A DNA stretch of 64,000 bases from Anaerolineaceae bacterium (GTDB taxonomy: Bacteria; Chloroflexota; Anaerolineae; Aggregatilineales; Phototrophicaceae). The stretch covers positions 1 to 64,000 of the forward strand of contig PABP01000038.1 of NCBI GenBank assembly GCA_002699585.1, read 5' to 3'. Positions 19,421-44,807 of this stretch are shown piece after piece. A program made the translations under genes and the position numbers. Positions within the stretch are counted from its first letter, which is position 1. Every line of letters begins with the position of its first letter. The notes under the pieces are model-generated. The model worked only from the letters and a program-made list of their open reading frames with translations. It was not told the DNA's origin and did not search any database.

Positions 19421-20303
19421 AAGGGTGCTCCAAAAAAGCTTCTAAGGCATCAACTATGAAGTCAGTGGCTGCACGCATCGGATTGACATTCTTTATGTAG
19501 AGTCATCCAACACAAGACTTTACGCCGATTGATATTTTAAGCATTTGGAGCTAGCAAGCATGAATACTTGGAAGGAAAGTGACTAGGTAGAAGTACCTAT
19601 TATATGCGACCGGCCCGAAGCATCTTTCGCATGTCAAGGACGAGCCTGATCTCATGTCGTATCTGATACCTGCTCAGCCAATGCAAACAAACTTAATTTG
19701 GTCAAAAAGCTCGAATGCAGTTGCCTTGGAGGAGTTCGACGCGACACGAGGAACTACGTCGATTCGTTTGTGCAGCTATCTTTTTTTCGAAGAAGAGTAA
19801 GGATCGAAAAGCTTGCCTGACAAATTAGAATGGAGCTTTAACTTGGATAAGGGACACATACCATAACGTTTACCAACTACCATGGCTTCCCTCAATTAAC
19901 CAGCGAACTCAATAAAATCTATATTGCCTGTATTCAATATCATAGAAGCCGCATTGATTGACAAGGCGAGGACTTGTATAGCAGAGTTCGTAATAGCGAC
20001 ACTACCTACGGATTCAGACAAAGCGAGATTGATCGAGATTCATGGGGAAGATGGACCTATCGCTTCACCTGCAATCGCTAAATACAGTCAAACAATCCCT
20101 CACTACTCTGTAAAGGTGAGGGATTGCCTTTGGAAGTATCCTCTTCCCTCCTGGTTTCCCTCCCCCCCCCGGTGGGTAACGGAATGCTCGCTATCTTATA
20201 GAGTTGAAATGAGTCAGCTCTGACACTTGCAAGTCTTGGCACTCAAGCCATACATAGCACTCTTAACTTATTCATCGAAAGAGATAAAGAGAAGGGATAA
20301 ATT
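19421..20303. other. 883-bp gap without a recognised gene
   Basis: No convincing coding region. It contains the perfect hairpin at 20093-20126 and a run of ten C at 20162-20170 and its flank (CCCTCCCCCCCCCCGG). The right end should hold the promoter of the NTF2-like gene, which has the SD AGAAGGGA before its GTG start. Confidence 0.5.
20093..20126. terminator. Perfect hairpin, possible terminator without T-run
   Basis: Stem CAATCCCTCAC / GTGAGGGATTG, 11 bp perfect, 12-nt loop. Neither side has a proper T-run (CCTTTGG follows on the plus strand), so termination is uncertain. No gene ends nearby on the plus strand. Confidence 0.4.
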
Positions 20304-20786
20304 GTGCTAAAGCTCACTTCAAAACTACTCATCGTACTGGTACTCGCCTTCAGCATTGGATTCGTGATCGCCCAAGAAGAGGATATGGTAGACGAAGAAG
20401 CCATCGACGCTATCACAGCAGTGGTCGTTGATGCTTATGGGGAACATGTCAACAACCACGATGCCGCTGGCTATGTCACCATGTTCACGGAAGATGTCTT
20501 ATGGTCGCCGCCGAATGGTCCTGATCAAACAGATGCCGAAGGGATTCAGGCTGCGGTGCAGGGCTTATTTGATCGGTTCGAATTCGATGTTCAACCACAG
20601 GCTGATGAAGTTGAAATACTTGGGAATATGGCTTATGTGGTTGGTGCTGTGCACGGTGTGTTGACGCCCCGCTCTGGTGACGATCCTGTGACCATCCACT
20701 TCCGCGTCATTTGGCTGCTTGGTAATGAAGATGGTGAATGGAAAATCGCCCGGCAGATCTGGAATAACAAACCAGTAGATGCATAA
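20304..20786 (+). CDS. Secreted SnoaL/SgcJ-like (NTF2 fold) protein
   Basis: 160 residues, GTG start at 20304 supported by AGAAGGGA 8 bases upstream and by the signal peptide it opens (KLLIVLVLAFSIGFVIAQEED). The mature part is an NTF2-like cone: AITAVVVDAYGEHVNNHDAAGYVTMFTEDVLWSPPNG, IQAAVQGLFDRFEF, VHFRVIWLL and WKIARQIWN. SgcJ/EcaC and SnoaL-like members often act as hydrolases or isomerases or simply bind small molecules. The function here is unknown, but a second NTF2-like protein with a membrane leader occurs at 42535. Confidence 0.75.
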   Translation: MLKLTSKLLIVLVLAFSIGFVIAQEEDMVDEEAIDAITAVVVDAYGEHVNNHDAAGYVTMFTEDVLWSPPNGPDQTDAEGIQAAVQGLFDRFEFDVQPQADEVEILGNMAYVVGAVHGVLTPRSGDDPVTIHFRVIWLLGNEDGEWKIARQIWNNKPVDA

Positions 20787-20971: not shown

Positions 20972-21163
20972 ATGGCAAAAGTACTGCGTTGTAAACATAT
21001 CGGGCCTGATGCTAACTGCAAATTTGTAGCACGTGGCGAGACAGAAAAAGACATTCTTCAGCAAGTGGCTGCTCACGCTAAAGATGTCCATGGACTTGCA
21101 GAAGTTCCGCCGGAACTGGTGCAGGCGGCTCTATCCAAAATCACAGAAGAGGAAGCCTCTTAA
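20972..21163 (+). CDS. DUF1059 family small protein
   Basis: 63 residues with the SD AGGAGAAA. The sequence shows the family pattern: MAKVLRCKHIGPDANCKFVARGET with two Cys spaced seven residues apart, then LQQVAAHAKDVHGL with His residues, and a C-terminal helix. The Cys/His pattern suggests a small metal-binding or redox-related fold, but DUF1059 has no established function. It converges on the regulator gene at 21182 with an 18-bp gap. Confidence 0.85.
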   Translation: MAKVLRCKHIGPDANCKFVARGETEKDILQQVAAHAKDVHGLAEVPPELVQAALSKITEEEAS

Positions 21164-21181: not shown

Positions 21182-23677
21182 TTACAATGTGAAGACCTGC
21201 TCGATAATCGTATCAATAGGCGGCAATTCAAAGGGTTCCCGGTGTGCGATGAGCGTCCCCGGGAGCTTCTCTTTCAAAGTCAATTTGATGTTTTCAATAC
21301 GATTGTCTGTTTCGACATCTTTGAAAGTTGAATAAGGTATGGAAGTCAGAAGTTTACAAGCTTTTTCATATTTTTCTTCAATAACTAACAACTCTAACAT
21401 GCTCACCAAGATTTCGACCATGAGAGGATAAGCTTCGATATTCTGAGCAGTTTGCATGGCATCACGAAAGTACTGTCGCGCAAGTTGCAGTTCTCCGAGT
21501 CGGCAAACATTGTCCCCGAGATTAATCAAAGCGGCTGTCGTACCCCAAAGATCACCAAGATTGCGACAAAGCGATAAACTCTCCTCGCAATAGTCTTTGC
21601 CTTCTTCGTATTCTCTTTGCATATAAGATGTGCGTCCCAAGTTGGTGAGAGCCGCTGCGATACCATGACGATCATGCAATTTTTCGCAGATATTGAGACT
21701 TGCTTGGTAATAATATTTTGCTTCGTCGAGTTTGCCCAAATCGTGGGCGAAAGCTCCCAGATTAACTAAAGACGTTGCGACGCCATGCTGGTCATCAAGA
21801 CGTTTTGAGATAACAAGACTACGTTTACAGGTTGCCTCAGCTTGATTCAAATCTCCGATGCGATAAAATCCCACTGATAGATTGTTCAAAGTGCTGGCTA
21901 TACTCCACTCATCTTCCAATTGCTGGAAGATGGCCAGGCCCTCTTCAATGAGTTGTACGGCTTTATTATAATCCCCTAATGAGCACGTCACATCAGCGAG
22001 GTTATTAAGAATGAACGCAACTTCATCCTTGGCTTCTGCCTTTTCGAGCACATTCAGAGCTGTTTCGAGCAGTTGTTTGGCCTGCTCATAATGCCCCAAA
22101 CGATGCACTAAGCTACCTTGCCTTGCCAAGACACGTCCGAGTAATGGTCTCTTATTACTTGTCACGCTGGTTTCTGTCAATGAGGTAATGGCGAAGCTGA
22201 ATAGCTCAATGCCTTCATTGATGCGGCTGCGCATACTAAAGAAATAATACAGACTCTTGAGATAGTCTTCAATCAGATCTATTGCTTCTTGCTTGACGGC
22301 ATGATACCAACCAGCTCGTATGTTTTCGATGTCTTGCTCGATGCTATCAAGCGCAGACAATTGTTCACGCCCTCTTAATTGCGATCTAAGACCAGATAGT
22401 TTTTCCCCAAAGTAGCCACAATGTGCTTGTTGCGTTATTTCTATGTCACCCACAGTCAAGAGCTGATGCTCGGCAAATTGACGGAGTAAGTTATGCATCC
22501 GATAGCGATGTTGCTTATCATGCCAGATTAGTGACTTACTGATAAAAGATTGTAGAATGGGGAAGCTGGCACCGGCGATCTTTTCACTGGCTTCTCGCGT
22601 ATATCCGCCACGAAAAACAGATAGCTTCATCAGAATGTTTTGCTCGGGTTCTGAAAGGCGTTGCCAGGTGTTCTGGAAGACCGCACGGATGCTTTTTTGT
22701 CGCTGTGGAATATCACGAACATTGGATGATAAAAAGTCAATGCTTCTTACAATTTCATCAGCAATTTCGCCCAATGATAAAGTGTCGACCCAAGATGCGG
22801 CTAGAATAATGCCCAAAGGCATACCACCAACCAAGCCGCATATACGCCATAGCGAATACATCTCGTGAGGATCAAATTCAAAGTCACTTTTGATGCGTCG
22901 TGCGCTTTGTAAAAACAATGACGCTGCATCAGATTCAAGAAAGGCTTCTGTAATCCGATTATCCTGAAATGTCATGCCGACAATGTTATACACCGTTTCA
23001 AACGTCAGCCGTAAACGCTCACGCGAAGTGACTATGATTTGAATGTTCGGTGCATATTCCAGTATGTCAGAAACAATTGTTGCCTTATCGAGCAGATGTT
23101 CAAAATTGTCTAGGATCAGCAGTAAGTTTTTGCTCTGTAAATATTGAAGAAGTTGTTGCTTAAGATCACGGCCATCTTGTTGAAACCGATAGTCGAGCCC
23201 TTCAGCGATGGTCGGAATAATGAACTCAACTTGGTCTTCTATTGAAGTCAAGTCGATGAAATAGATGCCATCATGAAATAGCTGGTCATTTTCTTGATTC
23301 GTGTTTGTCGCATTTGCTCCAATGTATTCTGCCAATGCGATAGCCAAACGTGACTTCCCCATTCCCCCCGGTGCAATGATTGAAATCAATCGAATATTAG
23401 GATTGTGCGCGTATGCAAATAGATCACGCAGTTCTTGTTCTCGCCCAACAAAATCATTCAACTGCGTTGGTAAGTTTTTTATTGTCCGTGTCAGCGTGTC
23501 TTCGTCACTCGATTCATCCTGCATATGTAAACCGAGTTGTCCTGCAATGACGATGGCGTGATCTCGGTCCTCAGCACCGAGCTTATTATATATCTGGCGG
23601 ATATACCATCGCACTGTACTATGAGCGATGAAAAGTTCTTCCGCTATTTCACGATTGGATAATCCCCCAGCAATCAA
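21182..23677 (-). CDS. NB-ARC/TPR LuxR-type transcriptional regulator (N-terminal HTH, damaged start)
   Basis: 831 residues in the intact frame. It begins inside a LuxR HTH (IAGGLSNREIAEELFIAHSTVRWYIRQIYNKLG), followed by an NB-ARC-type STAND ATPase with Walker A IIAPGGMGKSRLA (about 101-112) and LLLILDNFEHLL, then at least six TPR units from about residue 500 (for example EVAFILNNLADVTCSLGDYNKAVQLIEEGL). The first part of the HTH (ESLSERETEILSL) is encoded upstream in the same frame, but no ATG, GTG or TTG exists there. An ATG at 23757 with a good promoter behind it is in another frame, so a base seems to be missing. The signal is unknown. Confidence 0.8.
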   Translation of the reverse strand: MIAGGLSNREIAEELFIAHSTVRWYIRQIYNKLGAEDRDHAIVIAGQLGLHMQDESSDEDTLTRTIKNLPTQLNDFVGREQELRDLFAYAHNPNIRLISIIAPGGMGKSRLAIALAEYIGANATNTNQENDQLFHDGIYFIDLTSIEDQVEFIIPTIAEGLDYRFQQDGRDLKQQLLQYLQSKNLLLILDNFEHLLDKATIVSDILEYAPNIQIIVTSRERLRLTFETVYNIVGMTFQDNRITEAFLESDAASLFLQSARRIKSDFEFDPHEMYSLWRICGLVGGMPLGIILAASWVDTLSLGEIADEIVRSIDFLSSNVRDIPQRQKSIRAVFQNTWQRLSEPEQNILMKLSVFRGGYTREASEKIAGASFPILQSFISKSLIWHDKQHRYRMHNLLRQFAEHQLLTVGDIEITQQAHCGYFGEKLSGLRSQLRGREQLSALDSIEQDIENIRAGWYHAVKQEAIDLIEDYLKSLYYFFSMRSRINEGIELFSFAITSLTETSVTSNKRPLLGRVLARQGSLVHRLGHYEQAKQLLETALNVLEKAEAKDEVAFILNNLADVTCSLGDYNKAVQLIEEGLAIFQQLEDEWSIASTLNNLSVGFYRIGDLNQAEATCKRSLVISKRLDDQHGVATSLVNLGAFAHDLGKLDEAKYYYQASLNICEKLHDRHGIAAALTNLGRTSYMQREYEEGKDYCEESLSLCRNLGDLWGTTAALINLGDNVCRLGELQLARQYFRDAMQTAQNIEAYPLMVEILVSMLELLVIEEKYEKACKLLTSIPYSTFKDVETDNRIENIKLTLKEKLPGTLIAHREPFELPPIDTIIEQVFTL

Positions 23678-23757
23678 AGAGAGGATTTCGGTTTCACGTT
23701 CTGATAACGACTCATACGGTATTGAATTGGAAATGATGTTGTACCCCTCATACTCAT
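23678..23757 (-). pseudogene. 5' end of the NB-ARC LuxR gene, out of frame
   Basis: ATG at 23757 (and 23751) opens MSMRG. After the GGGG tract (CCCC on the plus strand at 23744-23747) the frame continues to a stop, while the frame one base away encodes YNIISNSIPYESLSERETEI and runs straight into the regulator. One extra G in the tract would join the two. It is thus a one-base deletion, a sequencing error or a switchable tract. Confidence 0.65.
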
Positions 23758-23790
23758 TTCAAATCCGTTTAAGGAGAAAATTTCCGTATG

Positions 23791-30458: not shown

Positions 30459-33071
30459 ATGTCGAGTCAGATCCTTGCCACAAAACTATATATCCCCGCG
30501 TCGCGTCTGGGTTCGGTGCCGCGTCCACGCCTAACCGAGCGCCTGAACGTAAGCTTACATGGCAACTTAACGCTGATCTCTGCGCCTGCTGGATTCGGCA
30601 AAACGACCTTAATTGCGGAATGGATCAATGCCCATGAGCATCCAACGGCGTGGCTTTCCCTGGATGAAGGAGACAGTGACCCTAATCGATTCCTGATATA
30701 CATCATTGCCGCCCTGCAAAACATCGCGCCGGAATTAGGCACTGGCATCCTGAACCTGCTCCAAGCGCCGCAGCCACCAGCCATTGATACACTCCTGACA
30801 CCATTGCTCAATGAGATGGCAGCCATCCCCCATAAGGCCGTACTAGTGCTGGATGATTATCACGTCCTGGATAGCCAGGAGATTGATGCGGCGATGGCGT
30901 TCCTTATTGACAATCAACCGCCACAACTGCATCTAGTCATCACCACTCGCGAAGACCCGCCGCTGCCACTGGCACGTCTAAGGGCGCGTGGTCAGCTTAC
31001 CGAACTGCGTGCCGCTGATCTGCGCTTCAGAGCAGATGAAGCCGCCATATTTCTCAATCAGGCGATGGGACTGGCGCTCTCATCAGAGGATGTCGAGGCG
31101 CTGGAACAGCGTACCGAAGGCTGGATTGTCGGCTTACAGTTGGCTGCACTCTCCATGCAGGGGCAACAAGATACGCATCAGTTCATCCAGTCATTCACTG
31201 GCAGCCATCATTTTGTGCTGGATTACCTGATCGAAGAGGTCTTGAATCTACAACCATCGCATATTCAGGATTTTCTCCTGAAGACCTCTATTCTGGATCA
31301 CATGTGTGGCCCATTGTGTGATGCCATCTTGCAAGACGCCAGTCAGTCCGGCGCGGCGACACTCGAAAGCATCCGGCAGGCGAATTTGTTTTTAATTCCG
31401 CTGGATAATGAACGCCGATGGTATCGATATCACCATCTCTTCGGCGACTTGCTCCGAAAACGCCTGGGGCAATCGACCCAAATAGAAGTGAATATGCTGC
31501 ACAACCGTGCCAGCGCATGGTATGAAGCCAATGGTTTTGAGCTAGAGGCATTCCAACATGCCATAGCGAGCAATGATATTGAACGTGCCGAGCGACTGAT
31601 CGAAAGCCAAGGCACACCGCTGTACCTTCGTGGTATCGTGAAGCCAATATTATATTGGCTTGAATCTCTCCCCCATCACATTTTGGATGCTCACCCTTCG
31701 TTGTGGATAGCTTACGCATCAACGCTATTGTTGGCTGGTCAACATACCTCTGTTGAGCAAAAACTTAATGAAGCTGAAAATGCACTGCAAAATGTCGGAC
31801 TAGATGACACAGTACAAGACATCATGGGGCGTATCGCCTCAATGCGAGCAACCTTGGCAGTTATTCAAAATGATGCAGAAGCCATGATTTCTCATTCGAA
31901 TGATGCCTTGGCGCGTTTACATCCTGAAAACTTACCGAGTCGTATCGCAGCACAGTGGACGCTGGGATATGCCTATCAATTGCAAGGCAATCATCGGCTG
32001 GCTCGTAATGCTTACAAAGAAGTTCTCCAGTTCAGTGAGTCTGGCGAAAAATCTTTCTATTTCATTGTTGCGACAATCAGCCTTGGGCAGTTACAAGAAT
32101 TGGATAATCAGCTTCATCAAGCAAGCGAGAGTTATCTGAGCGCAATAGCGTTGTCTAGCGAACCCTCTCACCCAATTGCGTCTGAAGCATTTCTTGGATT
32201 GGCACGCATAAACTATCAATGGAATGATTTAGAGTCGGCTCAAGAATATGGGCAACAATGTCATGAACTCCTGCAGCGGATGGAACATACCGACACAACA
32301 GCCTCTTACAAAATTTTCCTTGCTTACTTGCACCTGTCTAAAAGCGACTTCACGAGTGCAAGTGACGACTTGGATGAGGCTGAAGCCTTTGTTCGTCAGA
32401 ATAATTTCATGTTTCGAATGCCCGATATTGTCGAAGCTCAGGTGCGTGTCTTGATCCATCGGGGTGATTTAACGACAGCCCTGCAATTGGCTGAAACCCA
32501 CAATCTATCAATCAGCCAAGCTAGAATATATCTTGCTCAAGAGAACGCTTCCAGAGCATTGCAAATACTTGTCCCCTTCATTCAAGAAGCCAAGGAAAGG
32601 GAATTGCAGAATGAAGTGCTCAAGGGATTGGTATTGCAGGCCGTTGTTTACAAGGCTCTGAATCAACAAGATACCGCGTTGGAAGTCCTGGATGAATCAC
32701 TGGCATTAGCCAAGCATGGAGGATTCATTCGCATCTTTGTTGACGAAGGCATGCTCATGAAAGAGCTGCTATCCGAAGCGGTTGCTCAGAAAATGTCTCC
32801 GACCTATTCACAGAAGCTACTGATGGCGTTCGAAAGTAATTCGGGTGCAGAACCATCGCTTGCGTCACAAGCATTGATTGATCCGTTGAGTGAACGCGAA
32901 TTAGAAGTCCTGCGTCTGGTTGCCGAGGGTCTCTCTAATCGTGAGGTCAGCAAGCGCCTGTTTGTCGCCTTAGATACCGTCAAGGGACACAATCGGAACA
33001 TCTACCAGAAACTCCAGGTCAAAAGACGCACAGAGGCGGTCGCCCGTGCCCGCGAACTGGGTCTCATCTAG
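30459..33071 (+). CDS. MalT-like STAND/LuxR transcriptional regulator (module B)
   Basis: 870 residues. Starts ILATKLYIPASRLGSVPRPRL, Walker A APAGFGKTT (42-50), Walker B-like VLVLDDYHVL, LVITTREDPPLPLARLRARGQLTELRAADLRF, EGWIVGLQLAALSMQG, then TPR-like helical repeats and a C-terminal LuxR HTH (LSERELEVLRLVAEGLSNREVSKRL ... DTVKGHNRNIYQKLQV). The N-terminal 330 residues closely match the module C regulator at 54392, with the sensor part more diverged, as expected for paralogues with different inducers. It is followed after 109 bp by the small partner gene and then a quinone-oxidoreductase-like gene. Confidence 0.92.
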   Translation: MSSQILATKLYIPASRLGSVPRPRLTERLNVSLHGNLTLISAPAGFGKTTLIAEWINAHEHPTAWLSLDEGDSDPNRFLIYIIAALQNIAPELGTGILNLLQAPQPPAIDTLLTPLLNEMAAIPHKAVLVLDDYHVLDSQEIDAAMAFLIDNQPPQLHLVITTREDPPLPLARLRARGQLTELRAADLRFRADEAAIFLNQAMGLALSSEDVEALEQRTEGWIVGLQLAALSMQGQQDTHQFIQSFTGSHHFVLDYLIEEVLNLQPSHIQDFLLKTSILDHMCGPLCDAILQDASQSGAATLESIRQANLFLIPLDNERRWYRYHHLFGDLLRKRLGQSTQIEVNMLHNRASAWYEANGFELEAFQHAIASNDIERAERLIESQGTPLYLRGIVKPILYWLESLPHHILDAHPSLWIAYASTLLLAGQHTSVEQKLNEAENALQNVGLDDTVQDIMGRIASMRATLAVIQNDAEAMISHSNDALARLHPENLPSRIAAQWTLGYAYQLQGNHRLARNAYKEVLQFSESGEKSFYFIVATISLGQLQELDNQLHQASESYLSAIALSSEPSHPIASEAFLGLARINYQWNDLESAQEYGQQCHELLQRMEHTDTTASYKIFLAYLHLSKSDFTSASDDLDEAEAFVRQNNFMFRMPDIVEAQVRVLIHRGDLTTALQLAETHNLSISQARIYLAQENASRALQILVPFIQEAKERELQNEVLKGLVLQAVVYKALNQQDTALEVLDESLALAKHGGFIRIFVDEGMLMKELLSEAVAQKMSPTYSQKLLMAFESNSGAEPSLASQALIDPLSERELEVLRLVAEGLSNREVSKRLFVALDTVKGHNRNIYQKLQVKRRTEAVARARELGLI

Positions 33072-39516: not shown

Positions 39517-39621
39517 AGAAATTTTCCAAATAGATGTGAGAGTCTTAGATCAAATCATCGTCTTGCAAGACGAGAGTTCGCCAAGCCTCTCCAATACTTG
39601 ATATGCTGATACACGGTAACT

Positions 39622-39682: not shown

Positions 39683-42445
39683 ATGTCGACAGCAGACGCT
39701 GGATATACTGGGGCTAGGAGGCTTGCGTCTCTCACTGAACGTGAAAATGAGATCCTTGCTTGCTTGGCTCAAGGCATGACCAACCTCGAAATCGGTGAGG
39801 CACTTCATCTAGCTGTCACAACGGTCAAATGGTACACGCGGCAGATCTATAACAAGCTTGGTGTGAATAGTCGGCGTGAAGCCGCAATCTTTGCGCAGGA
39901 CAACGGTCTTTTCAGTGTCAGTATTACCCATACACCCGATATCAAGCACAATCTTCCAGCTGACACGACGCCTTTTGTGGGCCGGCATCACGAAATTGAA
40001 TCAATCTCTGGCTTAATCAAAAATCAGAATCATCGCCTCATAACAATTCTAGCACCGGGTGGCATGGGAAAATCGAGACTAGCGATTCAGGCCGCTCGGC
40101 AGCAGCTGGATAACTTCGCAGACGGCGTATTCTTCGTGCCTCTACAGCCTTTGAGTGCGCCAGATCAAATCGTGATCGCTATCGGTGATAGTATTGGCTT
40201 TGTTTTTTTACCGGATGCCCGTACACCAGAGCGACAACTGCTCGACTTTCTGGCTGATAAGGTCATGCTGCTGGTGCTCGATAATTACGAGCACCTTTTG
40301 GCAGGAACCCACCATATAACTGACATCTTGTTACATGCGTCAGCTGTCAGGATTCTAGTAACATCTCGTGAAAAACTGAATTTGACCAGTGAGACCATCA
40401 TCCATCTACAGGGACTCACCTATGATCGAGATGGTGCCCAGTCAGACGCAGCCGACTTATTTGTAGATACAGTTAAGCGACTCACACCCTCATACAAGGA
40501 TAGTAGCGACCATCAAGCGATAATTGACCACATTTGCCAACTGACAGAAGGCATGCCGCTTGCTTTGCTCCTGGCTGCGGCCTGGTCAGACACCTTGACT
40601 CTCGCACAGATCGCAGGGGAAATCGAAAGAAGTATTGGATTCCTTGAACAAGAAAAAAGCGATCTGCCCCAGCGCCATCGTGGCATTCGAGCTGTGTTTG
40701 AGCCTACCTGGGAACGGCTCACCGAATCTGAGCAACTCATGTTAGCGAAGTTCTCGATATTCGCTGGTGGCTGCACCTATGATGCGGCACAACAAATTAC
40801 AGGCGCTACGCCATCTATTCTTCAGAGCCTAGTGAACAAAGCGCTCATCATTCACTCGACAGAGGGGCGCTATGAGATGCATGAACTCCTGCGTCAATAT
40901 GCTGAAGAAAAACTGCATCTGCTTTACGACAATGAAAAAACAGAGCAGTTACATGCTGAATACTATTCACAGGCCGTGGCAGACTACGATAAAGGTGATT
41001 ATGGCCGCGGTAATCACGATCTAATCGCACCCGAATTAGATAATATTCGTAAAATGTGGTCACAGCTTGTCCAAACTCAACAGTGGGACCGCATAAAATC
41101 TTGTTGCTTTGGGATGCGCTGGATTTATGAGTTTTTTGCCCTATATCACGAAGCTGTTCAATGGTACGAAGCTGCCATTAAAGGCCTTGAAGAAGCAGGT
41201 CTTCTTCAACATCGCCGTGACGTATATGGATGCTTGTTGGCTGGCTATGCATTTTGTTTAGGGGATTCGGGCCACCCGAATTCTCTGAGCGTCTGCGAGC
41301 TTGCTCTCGATACACTATACGCGTGTGAACTCGATGCTATGACAGCTTACGCACTCGCAGTCGCACATGTACGCTACATCAATCTTCCCGTCCAAAACGA
41401 TAGGCCTCGGCGACAGTGGATACCTCTCTTCGAGAAAGTGTATTCGGTAAGCGAGCAAGCTGGCGACTACACCACAATGGGAAGCGCCCTCATACTCCGC
41501 GCCATTGATGAACTTGAAGTGAATGGCGATGTCAACACGTTCAATGACCTCGCCCATCGGGCATTGACCATTGCAACGGCTCATGAGGACTACGGCACCG
41601 CGGGGTGGGCATATGGGTTATTATCCAGCGGCTATTTTCATAATTGTCAATACGAAAATGCGCTGGATACTCGCATCGAACAAGTGCGCATGCAGACTGA
41701 AGTGGGATATAAGAACTGGGTAAACGATTCTATGTCGGCTGTCGGCTGGTATGCGCTCATCTTGGGACAATACGACATTGCCTTCGATTATGTTAAGCAA
41801 GCTATAGAACATGACAGAAAGTATTATTTACCTCACAATGAAGTTCAACATTTGATGCAATTGTGTGAGATGTATCTGTATATGGGTGAAAGCAACACTT
41901 GTTTAGATACCATGGCAGAGGTCGAACGTAAGCTTAGTAAGCTGTCGCAGCACTGGCAGTATGACATTCTTGTTCTTCAGAAGCAGTATGCTCAAGCTAT
42001 GATCGACCAATATCTTGGACATCACGATGCCGTTGAGAAGCAATGTTCATCAATACTTGGCAATCCCAAAACCTTGAGCACTCACTGGGGTATCCACTAC
42101 CGTCCCCTTTTTGAGCGAGTCCTTGGCGAATCACTTATTGCCCAGGATTGTCCCGAAGAAGCCTTTTCAAACCTGATATCTGCCCTCAAAAACATGGATG
42201 CGCATCATACTTCTCAAAAGCTGCACACACTGGTTAAACTCGCGCTAGCCTGTGAACCAGAATTGGAAACACAAATTCTCTTTATGTGCAGCGAACACCC
42301 CGGTACGTTCCATGCACATCGCGAGGAAGCATTGCAGCGACTCAGTCAATTAGCCACAACTATGAACATAGACGCATTTGAAACCGGCTCAAAACTGGGT
42401 CGTCATCGGAGCCTAGACGATACCATTGCACTTATTATCAGCTGA
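39683..42445 (+). CDS. NB-ARC LuxR-type transcriptional regulator (N-terminal HTH)
   Basis: 920 residues from ATG 39683 (GAGGG upstream); a GTG at 39656 sits at the predicted transcription start and is an alternative. N-terminal LuxR HTH (LTERENEILACLAQGMTNLEIGEAL ... TTVKWYTRQIYNKLGV), linker, STAND ATPase with Walker A ILAPGGMGKSRLA (about 120-132), VMLLVLDNYEHLL and ILVTSREKLNL, winged-helix region (FEPTWERLTESEQLMLAKFSIF), then long helical repeats. The pseudogene at 407-969 is a paralogue. The next two genes carry a shared promoter design and are candidate targets. Confidence 0.88.
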   Translation: MSTADAGYTGARRLASLTERENEILACLAQGMTNLEIGEALHLAVTTVKWYTRQIYNKLGVNSRREAAIFAQDNGLFSVSITHTPDIKHNLPADTTPFVGRHHEIESISGLIKNQNHRLITILAPGGMGKSRLAIQAARQQLDNFADGVFFVPLQPLSAPDQIVIAIGDSIGFVFLPDARTPERQLLDFLADKVMLLVLDNYEHLLAGTHHITDILLHASAVRILVTSREKLNLTSETIIHLQGLTYDRDGAQSDAADLFVDTVKRLTPSYKDSSDHQAIIDHICQLTEGMPLALLLAAAWSDTLTLAQIAGEIERSIGFLEQEKSDLPQRHRGIRAVFEPTWERLTESEQLMLAKFSIFAGGCTYDAAQQITGATPSILQSLVNKALIIHSTEGRYEMHELLRQYAEEKLHLLYDNEKTEQLHAEYYSQAVADYDKGDYGRGNHDLIAPELDNIRKMWSQLVQTQQWDRIKSCCFGMRWIYEFFALYHEAVQWYEAAIKGLEEAGLLQHRRDVYGCLLAGYAFCLGDSGHPNSLSVCELALDTLYACELDAMTAYALAVAHVRYINLPVQNDRPRRQWIPLFEKVYSVSEQAGDYTTMGSALILRAIDELEVNGDVNTFNDLAHRALTIATAHEDYGTAGWAYGLLSSGYFHNCQYENALDTRIEQVRMQTEVGYKNWVNDSMSAVGWYALILGQYDIAFDYVKQAIEHDRKYYLPHNEVQHLMQLCEMYLYMGESNTCLDTMAEVERKLSKLSQHWQYDILVLQKQYAQAMIDQYLGHHDAVEKQCSSILGNPKTLSTHWGIHYRPLFERVLGESLIAQDCPEEAFSNLISALKNMDAHHTSQKLHTLVKLALACEPELETQILFMCSEHPGTFHAHREEALQRLSQLATTMNIDAFETGSKLGRHRSLDDTIALIIS

Positions 42446-42457
42446 GCCTGCCCATTC

Positions 42458-42503
42458 CCCTCCTTTTAGGATGGTGACTGACAACCACAACACTCCCTAA
42501 GCT
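42458..42503 (+). promoter_or_regulatory. Promoter with adjacent palindrome, upstream of SnoaL-like gene
   Basis: CCCTCC-TTTT-AGGATGG (42458-42474), immediately TGACTG (-35, 42475-42480), 17-bp spacer, TAAGCT (-10, 42498-42503). The same elements with the same spacing occur at 43343-43388, while the spacer sequences differ. The palindrome abutting the -35 box is placed like an activator site. Confidence 0.7.
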
Positions 42504-42534
42504 ATAGGTGTCGCAAATAGCTAGGAGAACCGAC

Positions 42535-43110
42535 ATGTCATTCCCTTATTATTTGGCCATTCTGATAGCATTCGTCGCCAGTGTGGTCCCTGGCGGGCTT
42601 ATTTTGCAAACCGGAGAAGAGGATATGTCCCAAGAAGAACTTCATATCGCTAAGATTGAAAAGTGGATTAATGACGCTGTCCTCGGAGAAGACCCGTCAA
42701 TAGATTTTGCCCTTGAAGTCCTCGCTGACCCATTTATGCAGCATACAGAGGGCGACGATTTCACATATATTCACGCAGCGGGACCCATTCAATATTTCCG
42801 CAACATTCGATTCTATCTCGATGATGTCGATGTTGAAATTCGGCATATCGTTGCTCAAGATGACATGCTCGTCTGGCACTATACGATAAGAGGGATCTGG
42901 GCAAAACCCTTTTATGCAGCATCCGGCGTCGTTGAACCGACAAACGAGGAAGTGATCATTGAGCATATTCATATCACTCGTATGGAAGATGGGAAGATTG
43001 CTGAAGCATGGTTTTACTCTCGCGACAGACGGCAGTCAACCGAGCAACGATTGTTGCAGAGGCCAGTGACGAGTAGAGATCATCTTCTAACTCACTCGGC
43101 AGCGTACTAA
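42535..43110 (+). CDS. SnoaL-like (ester-cyclase type NTF2 fold) protein with hydrophobic leader
   Basis: 191 residues from ATG 42535 (AGGAGAA upstream). A hydrophobic N-terminal segment (YYLAILIAFVASVVPGGLIL) is followed by an NTF2-like domain: IEKWINDAVLGEDPSIDFALEVLADPFMQH, GPIQYFRNIRFYLDDVDVEIRHIVAQDDMLVWHYTIRG, EEVIIEHIHITRMEDGKIAEAWFY. This is the pattern of SnoaL/ester-cyclase-like proteins. It probably acts outside or at the membrane; the substrate is unknown. A strong terminator follows, so it is monocistronic. Confidence 0.8.
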   Translation: MSFPYYLAILIAFVASVVPGGLILQTGEEDMSQEELHIAKIEKWINDAVLGEDPSIDFALEVLADPFMQHTEGDDFTYIHAAGPIQYFRNIRFYLDDVDVEIRHIVAQDDMLVWHYTIRGIWAKPFYAASGVVEPTNEEVIIEHIHITRMEDGKIAEAWFYSRDRRQSTEQRLLQRPVTSRDHLLTHSAAY

Positions 43111-43161
43111 GGTTTAGGAATCTTCTGAGTGAGACGATTCCTACAAACAGATAGTTACAGA

Positions 43162-43192
43162 TAAGCGACGATTAGCTGAATCGTCGCTTTTA
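43162..43192 (+). terminator. Rho-independent terminator after SnoaL-like gene
   Basis: AAGCGACGATT / AATCGTCGCTT, 11-bp perfect stem, 5-nt loop, then TTATG. A smaller hairpin AGGAATC/GATTCCT lies just before it (43115-43141). Confidence 0.85.
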
Positions 43193-43342
43193 TGCATGGT
43201 CTTACCTCCTTGTTTCTACGCTGATCCTTGAATTAATCGACAGAACTATACGGTCGGTCTTGCAAGACACGAACTCCAATGAGCAATTTCACACTGGCAA
43301 GCAGATAAAAACCTCACTAGCAGACCATACCCTCACGCTTTT

Positions 43343-43388
43343 CCCTCCTTTTGGGAGGGTGACTGGCGACATTTCCACACCCTAAGCT
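43343..43388 (+). promoter_or_regulatory. Promoter with adjacent palindrome, upstream of haloperoxidase gene
   Basis: CCCTCC-TTTT-GGGAGGG (43343-43359), TGACTG (43360-43365), 17-bp spacer, TAAGCT (43383-43388). Twin of 42458-42503. Here the palindrome is perfect. Confidence 0.7.
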
Positions 43389-43421
43389 GAGGACGCCGCA
43401 AATTATTATGAGGGAGATTAA

Positions 43422-44807
43422 ATGTTCTTGAAACGTCGTTGGATATTCTTGATGGGCCTGCTTGCGATCTGTTTGTTTTCGCTGTCAGGTGTTTTCGCAC
43501 AATCCGATATGGACATGCTTGAGCCGGATGCCGGTAGCTGGCCGACGTTTATGATCGAGTCGGTCGATTCGTATCGTCTGGATGCGCCGGGTGACGATGC
43601 CGCTGAAATCGACGAGCTGAAAGCCATGCTGGACATGGTCGATGACGATATGCGCGCTCAAGTTCAGTACTGGACAGTAGGTGCGCCCGGTTATCGCTGG
43701 AATGAGTTTGCCAAAGACCAGATGTTTTTTGGTGGCGTGCCACATCCACCGGCGACACGCATTCTGGCAATCTTGAACTCGGCCATTTACGATGCCACCA
43801 TCGCTGCCTGGGATTCAAAATACGCTTATAACCGATCACGGCCAAGCGATGTCGATAGTTCCATCGAGCCACTGGTCGATGTTCCGCATAGCCCATCGTA
43901 CCCATCCGAAGATGCGGTCGCTGCAGGCGCTGCATCGGAAGTATTGGCGCACATCTTCGCACCACGAGCAGATTACTACCGTGCTCAAGCCGAATCTGCC
44001 GCGGATGCACTCAAGCATACAGGTATTTACTATCCCAGCGATGTGGATGCTGGCATGGAGTTGGGTCGGTCGGTTGCGGCAGAGATCATTGACTGGATTG
44101 ATAACAGTGTCTTCGATACGAGTACCGTAGAATCGATTGATGGTGGTGAGGGCAGGTGGAATGCTACCAACCCGATTCTGCCCAATATGGCCACCTGGAG
44201 TACCATTTCACTGCCGTCTGCCGATGCTTTCCGTCCTGATCCGCCCTTTGAATATGGGTCAGACGAATTGGAAGCCGAAATGCAGGAATTGCGCGACATC
44301 GAACGCACAACTGCCCAGATATTCCAGGCACGCTATTGGGAATATGGTGCCGGTGGCCCCAACGCTTATCATCACTGGATCAATCTCTTCAATCAGCTCG
44401 TGTATGAGTACGACCTTCAGGACAATGCACCGCGCGTCGCGCTCGCAAATGCGGCTTACGCTGTAGCTCAATATGATTCTCTGGTAGCAACCTGGGATGC
44501 CAAATATCACTATCTCGGAATTCGGCCCTTCCAATATGACCCAGAGTTTGTCGCATTATTCCCAGCACCCAATCATCCGAGTTATCCAGCAGCACATTCC
44601 GTTGGAACGACCGCAACGCTAGCGACGATGGCCGCATTCTTCCCAGCTGAAACCGACGAGTTGCTGAATCTAGCCGATACGGTTGGCTTATCTCGCATAT
44701 GGGCTGGCATTCATTTCCGCAGTGATATTGAGGTGGGGAACGACATGGGGAAAGCCATCTCAGACAGTATATTAGAACCCTTCGCAGACATTATCGCTGA
44801 CTTCTAG
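43422..44807 (+). CDS. Secreted vanadium-haloperoxidase/PAP2-superfamily protein
   Basis: 461 residues, SD AGGGAG, signal peptide (RRWIFLMGLLAICLFSLSGVFAQS). The C-terminal half has the vanadate/phosphate site: KYHYLGIRP (K-x6-RP, about 358), NHPSYPAAHS (about 387) and SRIWAGIHFRSD (about 424-435, S-R-x5-H-x3-D). An earlier segment (KYAYNRSRP, about 133, and SPSYPSEDAVAAGA, about 160) is a degenerate repeat of the same motifs without the His. The family includes haloperoxidases and acid phosphatases; these cannot be told apart from sequence alone. Its promoter matches that of the gene before it. Confidence 0.85.
   Translation: MFLKRRWIFLMGLLAICLFSLSGVFAQSDMDMLEPDAGSWPTFMIESVDSYRLDAPGDDAAEIDELKAMLDMVDDDMRAQVQYWTVGAPGYRWNEFAKDQMFFGGVPHPPATRILAILNSAIYDATIAAWDSKYAYNRSRPSDVDSSIEPLVDVPHSPSYPSEDAVAAGAASEVLAHIFAPRADYYRAQAESAADALKHTGIYYPSDVDAGMELGRSVAAEIIDWIDNSVFDTSTVESIDGGEGRWNATNPILPNMATWSTISLPSADAFRPDPPFEYGSDELEAEMQELRDIERTTAQIFQARYWEYGAGGPNAYHHWINLFNQLVYEYDLQDNAPRVALANAAYAVAQYDSLVATWDAKYHYLGIRPFQYDPEFVALFPAPNHPSYPAAHSVGTTATLATMAAFFPAETDELLNLADTVGLSRIWAGIHFRSDIEVGNDMGKAISDSILEPFADIIADF

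Follow-up and report, generated by a model that had tools for sequence, protein, structure and literature searches.

The regulator encoded at 39683 of the window, the 64,000-nucleotide stretch of Anaerolineaceae bacterium DNA analysed here (assembly GCA_002699585.1, contig PABP01000038.1, positions 1 to 64,000), is probably a one-component STAND switch whose N-terminal helix-turn-helix (HTH) would bind a palindrome located at about -52 to -36 of two neighbouring promoters and recruit polymerase to both of them. The layout of the sites, their restriction to two genes in their own genome, the reappearance of that layout in further genera and families and the parallel variation of operators and regulators are observations; binding and activation are proposed from comparison of sequences. 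The features are collected in Table 1.

Table 1. Position of the regulator, its putative targets, the promoter elements and the sibling system in the window
Feature	Position	Strand	Description
Regulator	39683..42445	+	920 aa; N-terminal LuxR/GerE HTH (residues 16-71), STAND NTPase of the NB-ARC type, TPR match towards the C-terminus
Operator 1	42458..42474	+	CCCTCCTTTTAGGATGG; 17-bp imperfect palindrome, same layout in relatives
-35 region, abutting operator 1	42475..42480	+	TGACTG; GTGACT in sigma-70 register
-10 region, SnoaL-like gene	42498..42503	+	TAAGCT; composite match
Leader block, promoter 1	42512..42518	+	CGCAAAT; common to both promoters
Target 1, SnoaL-like protein	42535..43110	+	191 aa; PF07366 E 2.8e-10; hydrophobic N-terminus by eye
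Probable intrinsic terminator after SnoaL-like gene	43163..43193	+	11-bp stem, short T-rich tail; -16.4 kcal/mol, z -4.2
Operator 2	43343..43359	+	CCCTCCTTTTGGGAGGG; 17-bp imperfect palindrome
-35 region, abutting operator 2	43360..43365	+	TGACTG
-10 region, haloperoxidase-like gene	43383..43388	+	TAAGCT; composite match
Leader block, promoter 2	43397..43403	+	CGCAAAT; common to both promoters
Target 2, PAP2/vanadium-haloperoxidase-like protein	43422..44807	+	461 aa; PF01569 E 6.6e-15; signal-like N-terminus by eye
Sibling switch	20158..20204	+	CCCTCCCCCCCCCGGTGGG, TAACGG, N16, TAGAGT; 13/16 in 17-bp register
DUF4440/SnoaL-like protein behind sibling switch	20304..20786	+	signal-like N-terminus
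Sibling regulator	21182..23758	-	N-terminal LuxR HTH, NB-ARC-type part; 38% identical

The composite sites at 42458-42503 and 43343-43388 share one design, CCCTCC-N5-GGA(T/G)GG joined without a gap to TGACTG-N17-TAAGCT, and the original prediction that the same palindrome, boxes and 17-bp spacing precede both genes proved exact at both sites. The start codons of the SnoaL-like and haloperoxidase-like genes lie 32 and 34 bases beyond the ends of the -10 boxes, respectively, each with a Shine-Dalgarno-like sequence. In a sigma-70 register the -35 element would be GTGACT followed by an 18-bp spacer, placing the operator at the position given above. The boxes had also been described as poor, in agreement with the finding that both core promoters stay below 9 of the 12 sigma-70 consensus positions; at both promoters the operator abuts the -35 element and the core elements are weak, as in class II promoters.

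The two sites are identical at 45 of 61 positions, distributed as 15/17 in the operator, 6/6 in TGACTG, 9/17 in the spacer, 6/6 in TAAGCT and 9/15 in the leader, and the flanks outside this stretch fall to 10-45% identity in 20-base steps. Spacer identity is near the level expected from composition (P 0.11) and leader identity is above it (P 0.005) because the CGCAAAT block stands at a fixed distance after the -10 box, an element that adds to the earlier description of these promoters. It had been argued that the likeness reflects selection and not recent duplication. This is reasonable in view of the spacer, and a duplication in recent time appears an unlikely origin; the part that needs amending concerns older events, since, in view of the leader identity, a promoter of 60 bp may have been duplicated long ago and then maintained by selection.

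The element is rare. The number of sites expected by chance in the window was 0.00 (100 shuffles), and in the organism's own genome (42 contigs, 6,701,443 bases, 96% complete) the operator plus TGACTG was matched twice with up to 3 mismatches, the reversed control giving 0. When up to 2 mismatches were allowed, the full 46-bp composite was matched 5 times in the same genome and once in the control; the two exact composites are those of the window and the other three carry 2 mismatches. Among 98 related genomes, the operator of the window with up to 2 mismatches had one extra match, in G033. A scan of 154 genomes for the exact pattern gave one extra match, in G011, against 4 in the controls; its surroundings look coding by eye and it was taken as chance. 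In the comparison genome of the same genus (G059) neither the motif nor the SnoaL-like and haloperoxidase-like genes are present, and the listed match to the regulator contains internal stops.

The HTH of the regulator (PF00196, E 1.4e-17) is N-terminal, not C-terminal. Its NB-ARC match (E 0.00091, 19 bits) is under the curated cut-off of 23.5, but the P-loop residues G127, G129 and K130 are invariant across 15 aligned regulators, and TPR_12 is matched at residues 642-712 (E 1.9e-7). Its Pfam matches include no SARP/BTAD family and no acyl-homoserine-lactone domain. In its own genome 40 places match the regulator, most of them by the LuxR HTH alone, and the first 85 kb of the window's contig (C7) look dense in LuxR-HTH genes, with matches near 586, 16575, 21749, 26536, 32874, 39683, 56897, 67241 and 81082. 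A different palindrome, CGTCTTGCAAGACG, is present upstream of the regulator at 39559-39572, with a second copy carrying 1 mismatch at 31325-31338, and was seen by eye in three further stretches of the own genome (L094, L095, L096).

With respect to the putative targets, relatives of the SnoaL-like protein outside its own genome are only distant (22-33% identity, 61 genomes), and 7 haloperoxidase relatives at least 43% identical were detected in other genomes. Among the six haloperoxidase relatives with upstream DNA (L021-L025, L027), inspection by eye revealed the layout only at L024 (G016), where a homologue 45% identical is preceded by the same promoter layout and accompanied by a divergent regulator. 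Upstream of the homologues at L022 and L025 (G051 and G013) there is the apparent end of a C-terminal LuxR HTH gene, together with AATAAACCC/AATAAAC repeats common to both, a context suggestive of a different class of regulator acting on this target. On G000 contig C18 (17983-18282; L047, L050) there is a piece of 100 residues that matches the haloperoxidase-like protein at its C-terminal end with 91% identity, perhaps left over from a second copy of recent origin.

The layout was searched for beside related regulators with a rule of 16 fixed positions (CCCTCC, GG, GG, TGA, TAnnnT) and a spacer of 16-18 bp. The regulator loci comprised all 34 new family matches starting in the HTH (33 stretches) plus the stretches collected earlier, with 7 stretches of 20 kb as controls. 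A scan of contigs with the single regulator as query confirmed no relative, and an alignment was used in its place. Sites of at least 14/16 numbered 11 in 510 kb of regulator loci, 2 of them the window's own, and 0 in 289 kb of control loci, and among the divergent 350-bp segments of 38 N-terminal-HTH regulators 15 contained a site scoring at least 12/16 (1.3 expected), 7 one of at least 13/16 (0.27 expected) and 4 one of at least 14/16 (0.10 expected), both counts being partly circular because the rule was written after several of the scored loci had been seen. None of 1000 permuted patterns matched the result for the 38 segments. The 15 positive loci include two near-identical pairs (L145/L147 and L148/L154); a kinase fusion (L149), a locus in which no HTH was found (L095) and a broken copy (L096) had been left out before the count. 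The regulator at 39683 had been put forward as the obvious candidate to act on these promoters, a proposal strengthened by this recurrence beside related N-terminal-HTH STAND proteins. For 23 of the 38 regulators the divergent segment has no site of at least 12/16; some of these have one elsewhere nearby (the window's own regulator, L130, L137, L141 and L152) and for the others none was found.

This separation of loci depends on the bases of the arms: a scan blind to them, with any 6-bp arms followed by TGAC-like and TAnnnT-like boxes, gave 61 matches in 510 kb of regulator loci vs 29 in 264 kb of controls, that is, no separation, and was discarded. A test for an HTH near the N-terminus was passed by 4 loci that entered the count of 38 regulators and later by 6 that were counted under the fixed rule; 13 loci on contigs already examined were left out before these two counts and before a scan of 25 loci presumed to be of the N-terminal-HTH type from the position of the match (some are C-terminal). 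That scan covered 288 kb and yielded 3 sites scoring at least 14/16, of which one (L191) lies inside the regulator gene, and 40 other STAND loci gave 0 sites in 407 kb.

Once the rule was fixed, the six further regulators showed a site of at least 12/16 in 3 cases (0.21 expected), reaching 13/16 in 1 and 14/16 in none. Seven loci from across the class, among the matches listed, contained a site of at least 14/16 in 3 cases (0.019 expected), namely G413, G244 and G356, which represent two further families of this class; no site of 12/16 was present at G437, G477, G057 and G059. All seven were counted, including L286, which looks SARP-type, and L289, a broken copy; L284 shares its contig with L184, scanned earlier under the fixed rule. 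Starting from the motif, with up to 1 mismatch in 98 genomes of the family, 18 matches were obtained (2 of them the window's) against 5 for reversed controls. An N-terminal-HTH STAND gene is found beside or within about 4 kb of 10 of the 18: the window's two, G005, G006, two in G007, G008, G032 and two in G038; 7 of these 10 belong to loci that had shaped the rule and, apart from the window's 2, only G007:C706 is new. Sites in G016 (L306, with its 5' end overlapped by an opposite-strand open frame) and G062 (L307) precede target-like genes with no such regulator in the flank examined, and no N-terminal-HTH STAND regulator was found in the flank examined of the G045 site (L308). Five more matches lie inside open frames of 642-2049 bases, a number equal to that of the controls. 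The proximity of the composite motif to orthologues of the 39683 regulator, the check proposed with the original prediction, was therefore positive in the regulator-first, fixed-rule (3/7 and 3/6) and motif-first (10/18) searches.

The features of the element were summarized in a hand-picked set of 27 sites, from which near-identical and weaker sites were excluded and in which L137 and L152 appear twice each. TGAC predominates in the -35 region, the -10 region has TA in 27/27 and the final T in 26/27, and the spacer measures 16-17 bp in 25/27 under a rule that permitted 16-18 only; palindromicity averages 5.2 of 7 pairs vs 3.1 in shuffles. Some neighbourhoods contain several copies: L137 has three, and L152 and the window have two each. 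A second class of operator, approximately AGGTGACAACCTGA, with the palindrome centred on the -35 element, was seen in the divergent intergenic regions of L138, L142, L145, L147, L148 and L154, which adjoin N-terminal-HTH STAND regulators; the first genes of L138 and L154 are weak DUF2917 matches. On contig C15 of G000 (L099, from 4672 onwards), TACCCCCCTGGTGGTA-TGACAG-N16-TAAACT stands behind a C-terminal-HTH LuxR gene and before an acyltransferase gene, and the layout may therefore extend to C-terminal-HTH regulators. In a metagenome-assembled genome titled Rhodothermia (L196), TCCACCCTTTCGGGTGG-TGACAC-N17-TATTCT, scoring 14/16, precedes a SnoaL gene, an occurrence that may reflect transfer or wrong binning.

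Operators and regulators vary together. In 22 regulator-operator pairs, operator distance correlated with the distance between recognition helices (r 0.49, P 0.0001) and with that between NB-ARC parts (r 0.42, P 0.0001); each correlation persisted when the other was allowed for (HTH given NB-ARC, r 0.24, P 0.002; NB-ARC given HTH, r 0.24, P 0.002), so that some of the co-variation reflects shared descent and some remains for the HTH, in a test limited by the choice of all operators by one rule. By eye, regulators of the TTVKWYxRQI type are accompanied by CCCTCC palindromes, those of the GTVKWYNTQI type by AGGTGACAACCTGA and the sibling type STVRWYIRQI by CCCTCC-C(n)-GGTGGG; at L131, L135 and L140, with helices close to the TTVKWYxRQI and GTVKWYNTQI types, no site was found. 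Some paralogues in the own genome seem to possess related but different operators near them.

One such system is contained in the window itself, where the sibling regulator is the probable owner of the switch at 20158. Sites similar to this switch were detected in G038 (L137) and G062 (L307), and in G062 a protein that by eye resembles the 20304 product is encoded behind the similar switch. A small gene near 20972, in the same sibling system, reads like DUF1059.

Among the genes located behind the sites, the putative targets recur across loci: SnoaL-like (the window, G006 with two in a row, G007 and L196), haloperoxidase-like (the window and G016) and TPR proteins (G032, with look-alikes in G005, G007 and G016). 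FAD/BBE oxidases (G038, L187), weak DUF2917 matches (L138, L154, L152) and DUF1059, SCO4226-like, DinB/MDMPI-like and PETase-like hydrolase proteins were also found in this position, as well as, by eye, a lipoprotein-like SnoaL-type protein at G413 and a DinB-type protein at G356. The genes behind the sites of L097, L137:932 and L177 have no family match.

The mechanism proposed for the 39683 regulator begins with its N-terminal LuxR-type HTH, which, as a dimer or larger assembly, would bind CCCTCC-N5-GGA(T/G)GG. Ligand binding by the TPR part would open the NTPase and allow the regulator to multimerise, and the multimer, seated on the operator beside the -35 element, would recruit RNA polymerase with sigma-70 to a promoter of insufficient strength by itself, in a class II type of activation. 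The arms of the operator read outward as GGAGGG and GGA(T/G)GG, and the simplest model would have a dimer on these two outward-facing half-sites in contact with the sigma-70 polymerase. The expected outcome is a regulon private to this regulator and made up of the SnoaL-like and the haloperoxidase-like gene, each with its own transcript and each probably encoding an exported protein.

Other explanations were weighed against activation. A dimer that touches the -35 element can also block polymerase, and a repressor of the LAL type is known (SCO6993; PMC9628970); nevertheless, that the regulator binds the palindrome and represses, or keeps the promoter poised until its ligand comes, is unlikely considering that the operator lies upstream of TGAC and not over the spacer or the -10 region, that neither core promoter reaches 9 of the 12 sigma-70 consensus positions and that the spacers of the hand-picked sites keep to 16-17 bp in nearly all cases (within the 16-18 bp that the rule permitted). 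We give somewhat less credit to the idea that the palindrome is owned by another factor, either another LuxR-HTH protein or a global one, with the STAND regulator as a bystander. The abundance of HTH matches in the own genome, the three sites in other genomes without a STAND regulator in the flank examined and the tracking of the NB-ARC part by operator similarity would fit this idea, but a global factor would have many sites and the own genome has two, more than half of the motif-first matches are beside or near an N-terminal-HTH STAND gene, and the HTH still tracks the operator after allowing for NB-ARC.

It is very improbable that a promoter stretch of about 60 bp was simply copied between the two genes and is too young to have diverged, in which case the match would be uninformative on regulation: the leader block is common to both copies as well, but the spacers are alike only to the level of composition next to a nearly identical operator and boxes, and the layout extends to further genera and families. 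An ancient copy that selection then preserved is possible and compatible with binding by the regulator. Hardly credible, finally, is that the palindrome functions in RNA, as a hairpin or as a terminator for the gene before it. Site 2 can fold (-13.1 kcal/mol, z -2.0) and site 1 (-7.6 kcal/mol) begins 12 bases past the regulator's stop codon; against this, neither palindrome was called in a terminator scan, no T run follows either of them on either strand, and the common genome-wide hairpin that the original prediction had named as its possible refutation was not encountered, with two copies in the own genome and few elsewhere, so the terminator reading was dropped. Another stem, stronger than the palindromes, lies after the SnoaL-like gene; it is absent from the list of the consensus terminator scan and, if it does terminate transcription, two promoters would be needed, one per gene, and the double occurrence of the element would be accounted for.

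If activation by the 39683 regulator is correct, regulators located beside a matching palindrome could be paired with their operator and targets from sequence, their ligands could be sought with simple reporters, and matched helices and operators could serve to work out a recognition code for HTH domains of the LuxR type; for the organism itself, it would imply a common trigger for SnoaL-like and haloperoxidase-like proteins. This class of sensors is little studied and its pairing with an operator would make it easier to test. A broader proposal, on which we are evenly divided, is that the N-terminal-HTH STAND-LuxR proteins of Anaerolineae constitute many parallel, insulated switches, each paralogue with a private outward-facing palindrome of MalT-like half-sites abutting the -35 element of a small number of genes whose products are exported, and with operator and recognition helix diverging together, so that a protein-DNA recognition code could be read from genomes and many orthogonal ligand sensors could be paired with promoters ahead of experimental work.

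No paper joining LuxR, NB-ARC and Chloroflexi was found, and in the broader literature, among the matches listed, no title or abstract dealt with such operators. The closest parallel is with MalT, which forms multimers once its ligand is bound, occupies its boxes and recruits polymerase (PMC4381067). Both proteins combine a STAND NTPase, a TPR-like sensor and a LuxR-type HTH; the HTH of the regulator and the C-terminal HTH of Escherichia coli MalT are identical at 24 of 61 residues (39%), and the right half-site GGA(T/G)GG resembles the MalT box, GGA[TG]GA (PMC9628970). Unlike MalT, with its C-terminal HTH and the three separate GGA[TG]GA boxes of the malP upstream region, the regulator described here has an N-terminal HTH, one tight outward-facing palindrome abutting the -35 element and a regulon of two neighbouring genes.

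The lux box is located beside the -35 element. The LuxR-type HTH and the inverted-repeat site are shared with LuxR, whose lux box is a 20-bp inverted repeat (PMC9628970); in contrast to LuxR, the acyl-homoserine-lactone domain is missing from the Pfam matches of the regulator and the operator sequence differs. LAL regulators carry the HTH at the C-terminus (PMC9628970), and in a census of actinobacterial LuxR proteins, as excerpted, domain combinations are named with the LuxR domain last, apart from that of LuxR with a cold-shock domain (PMC3466318). With its HTH at the N-terminus, the regulator is thus classified as a new variant of STAND-LuxR regulation and not as a member of the LAL family. 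Like the Streptomyces LAL protein SCO6993, which binds short inverted repeats, it is a large ATP-binding LuxR regulator, but SCO6993 has a C-terminal HTH and represses, and its authors, in the excerpt of their paper, could give no consensus (PMC9628970), whereas here a consensus holds across genera. The fusion of an N-terminal DNA-binding domain to a LAL-like half recalls the SARP-LAL protein PimR (PMC3367932); in PimR, however, this domain belongs to the SARP type and its sites consist of heptameric direct repeats (PMC5930380), whereas the regulator of the window combines a GerE-type domain with an inverted repeat.
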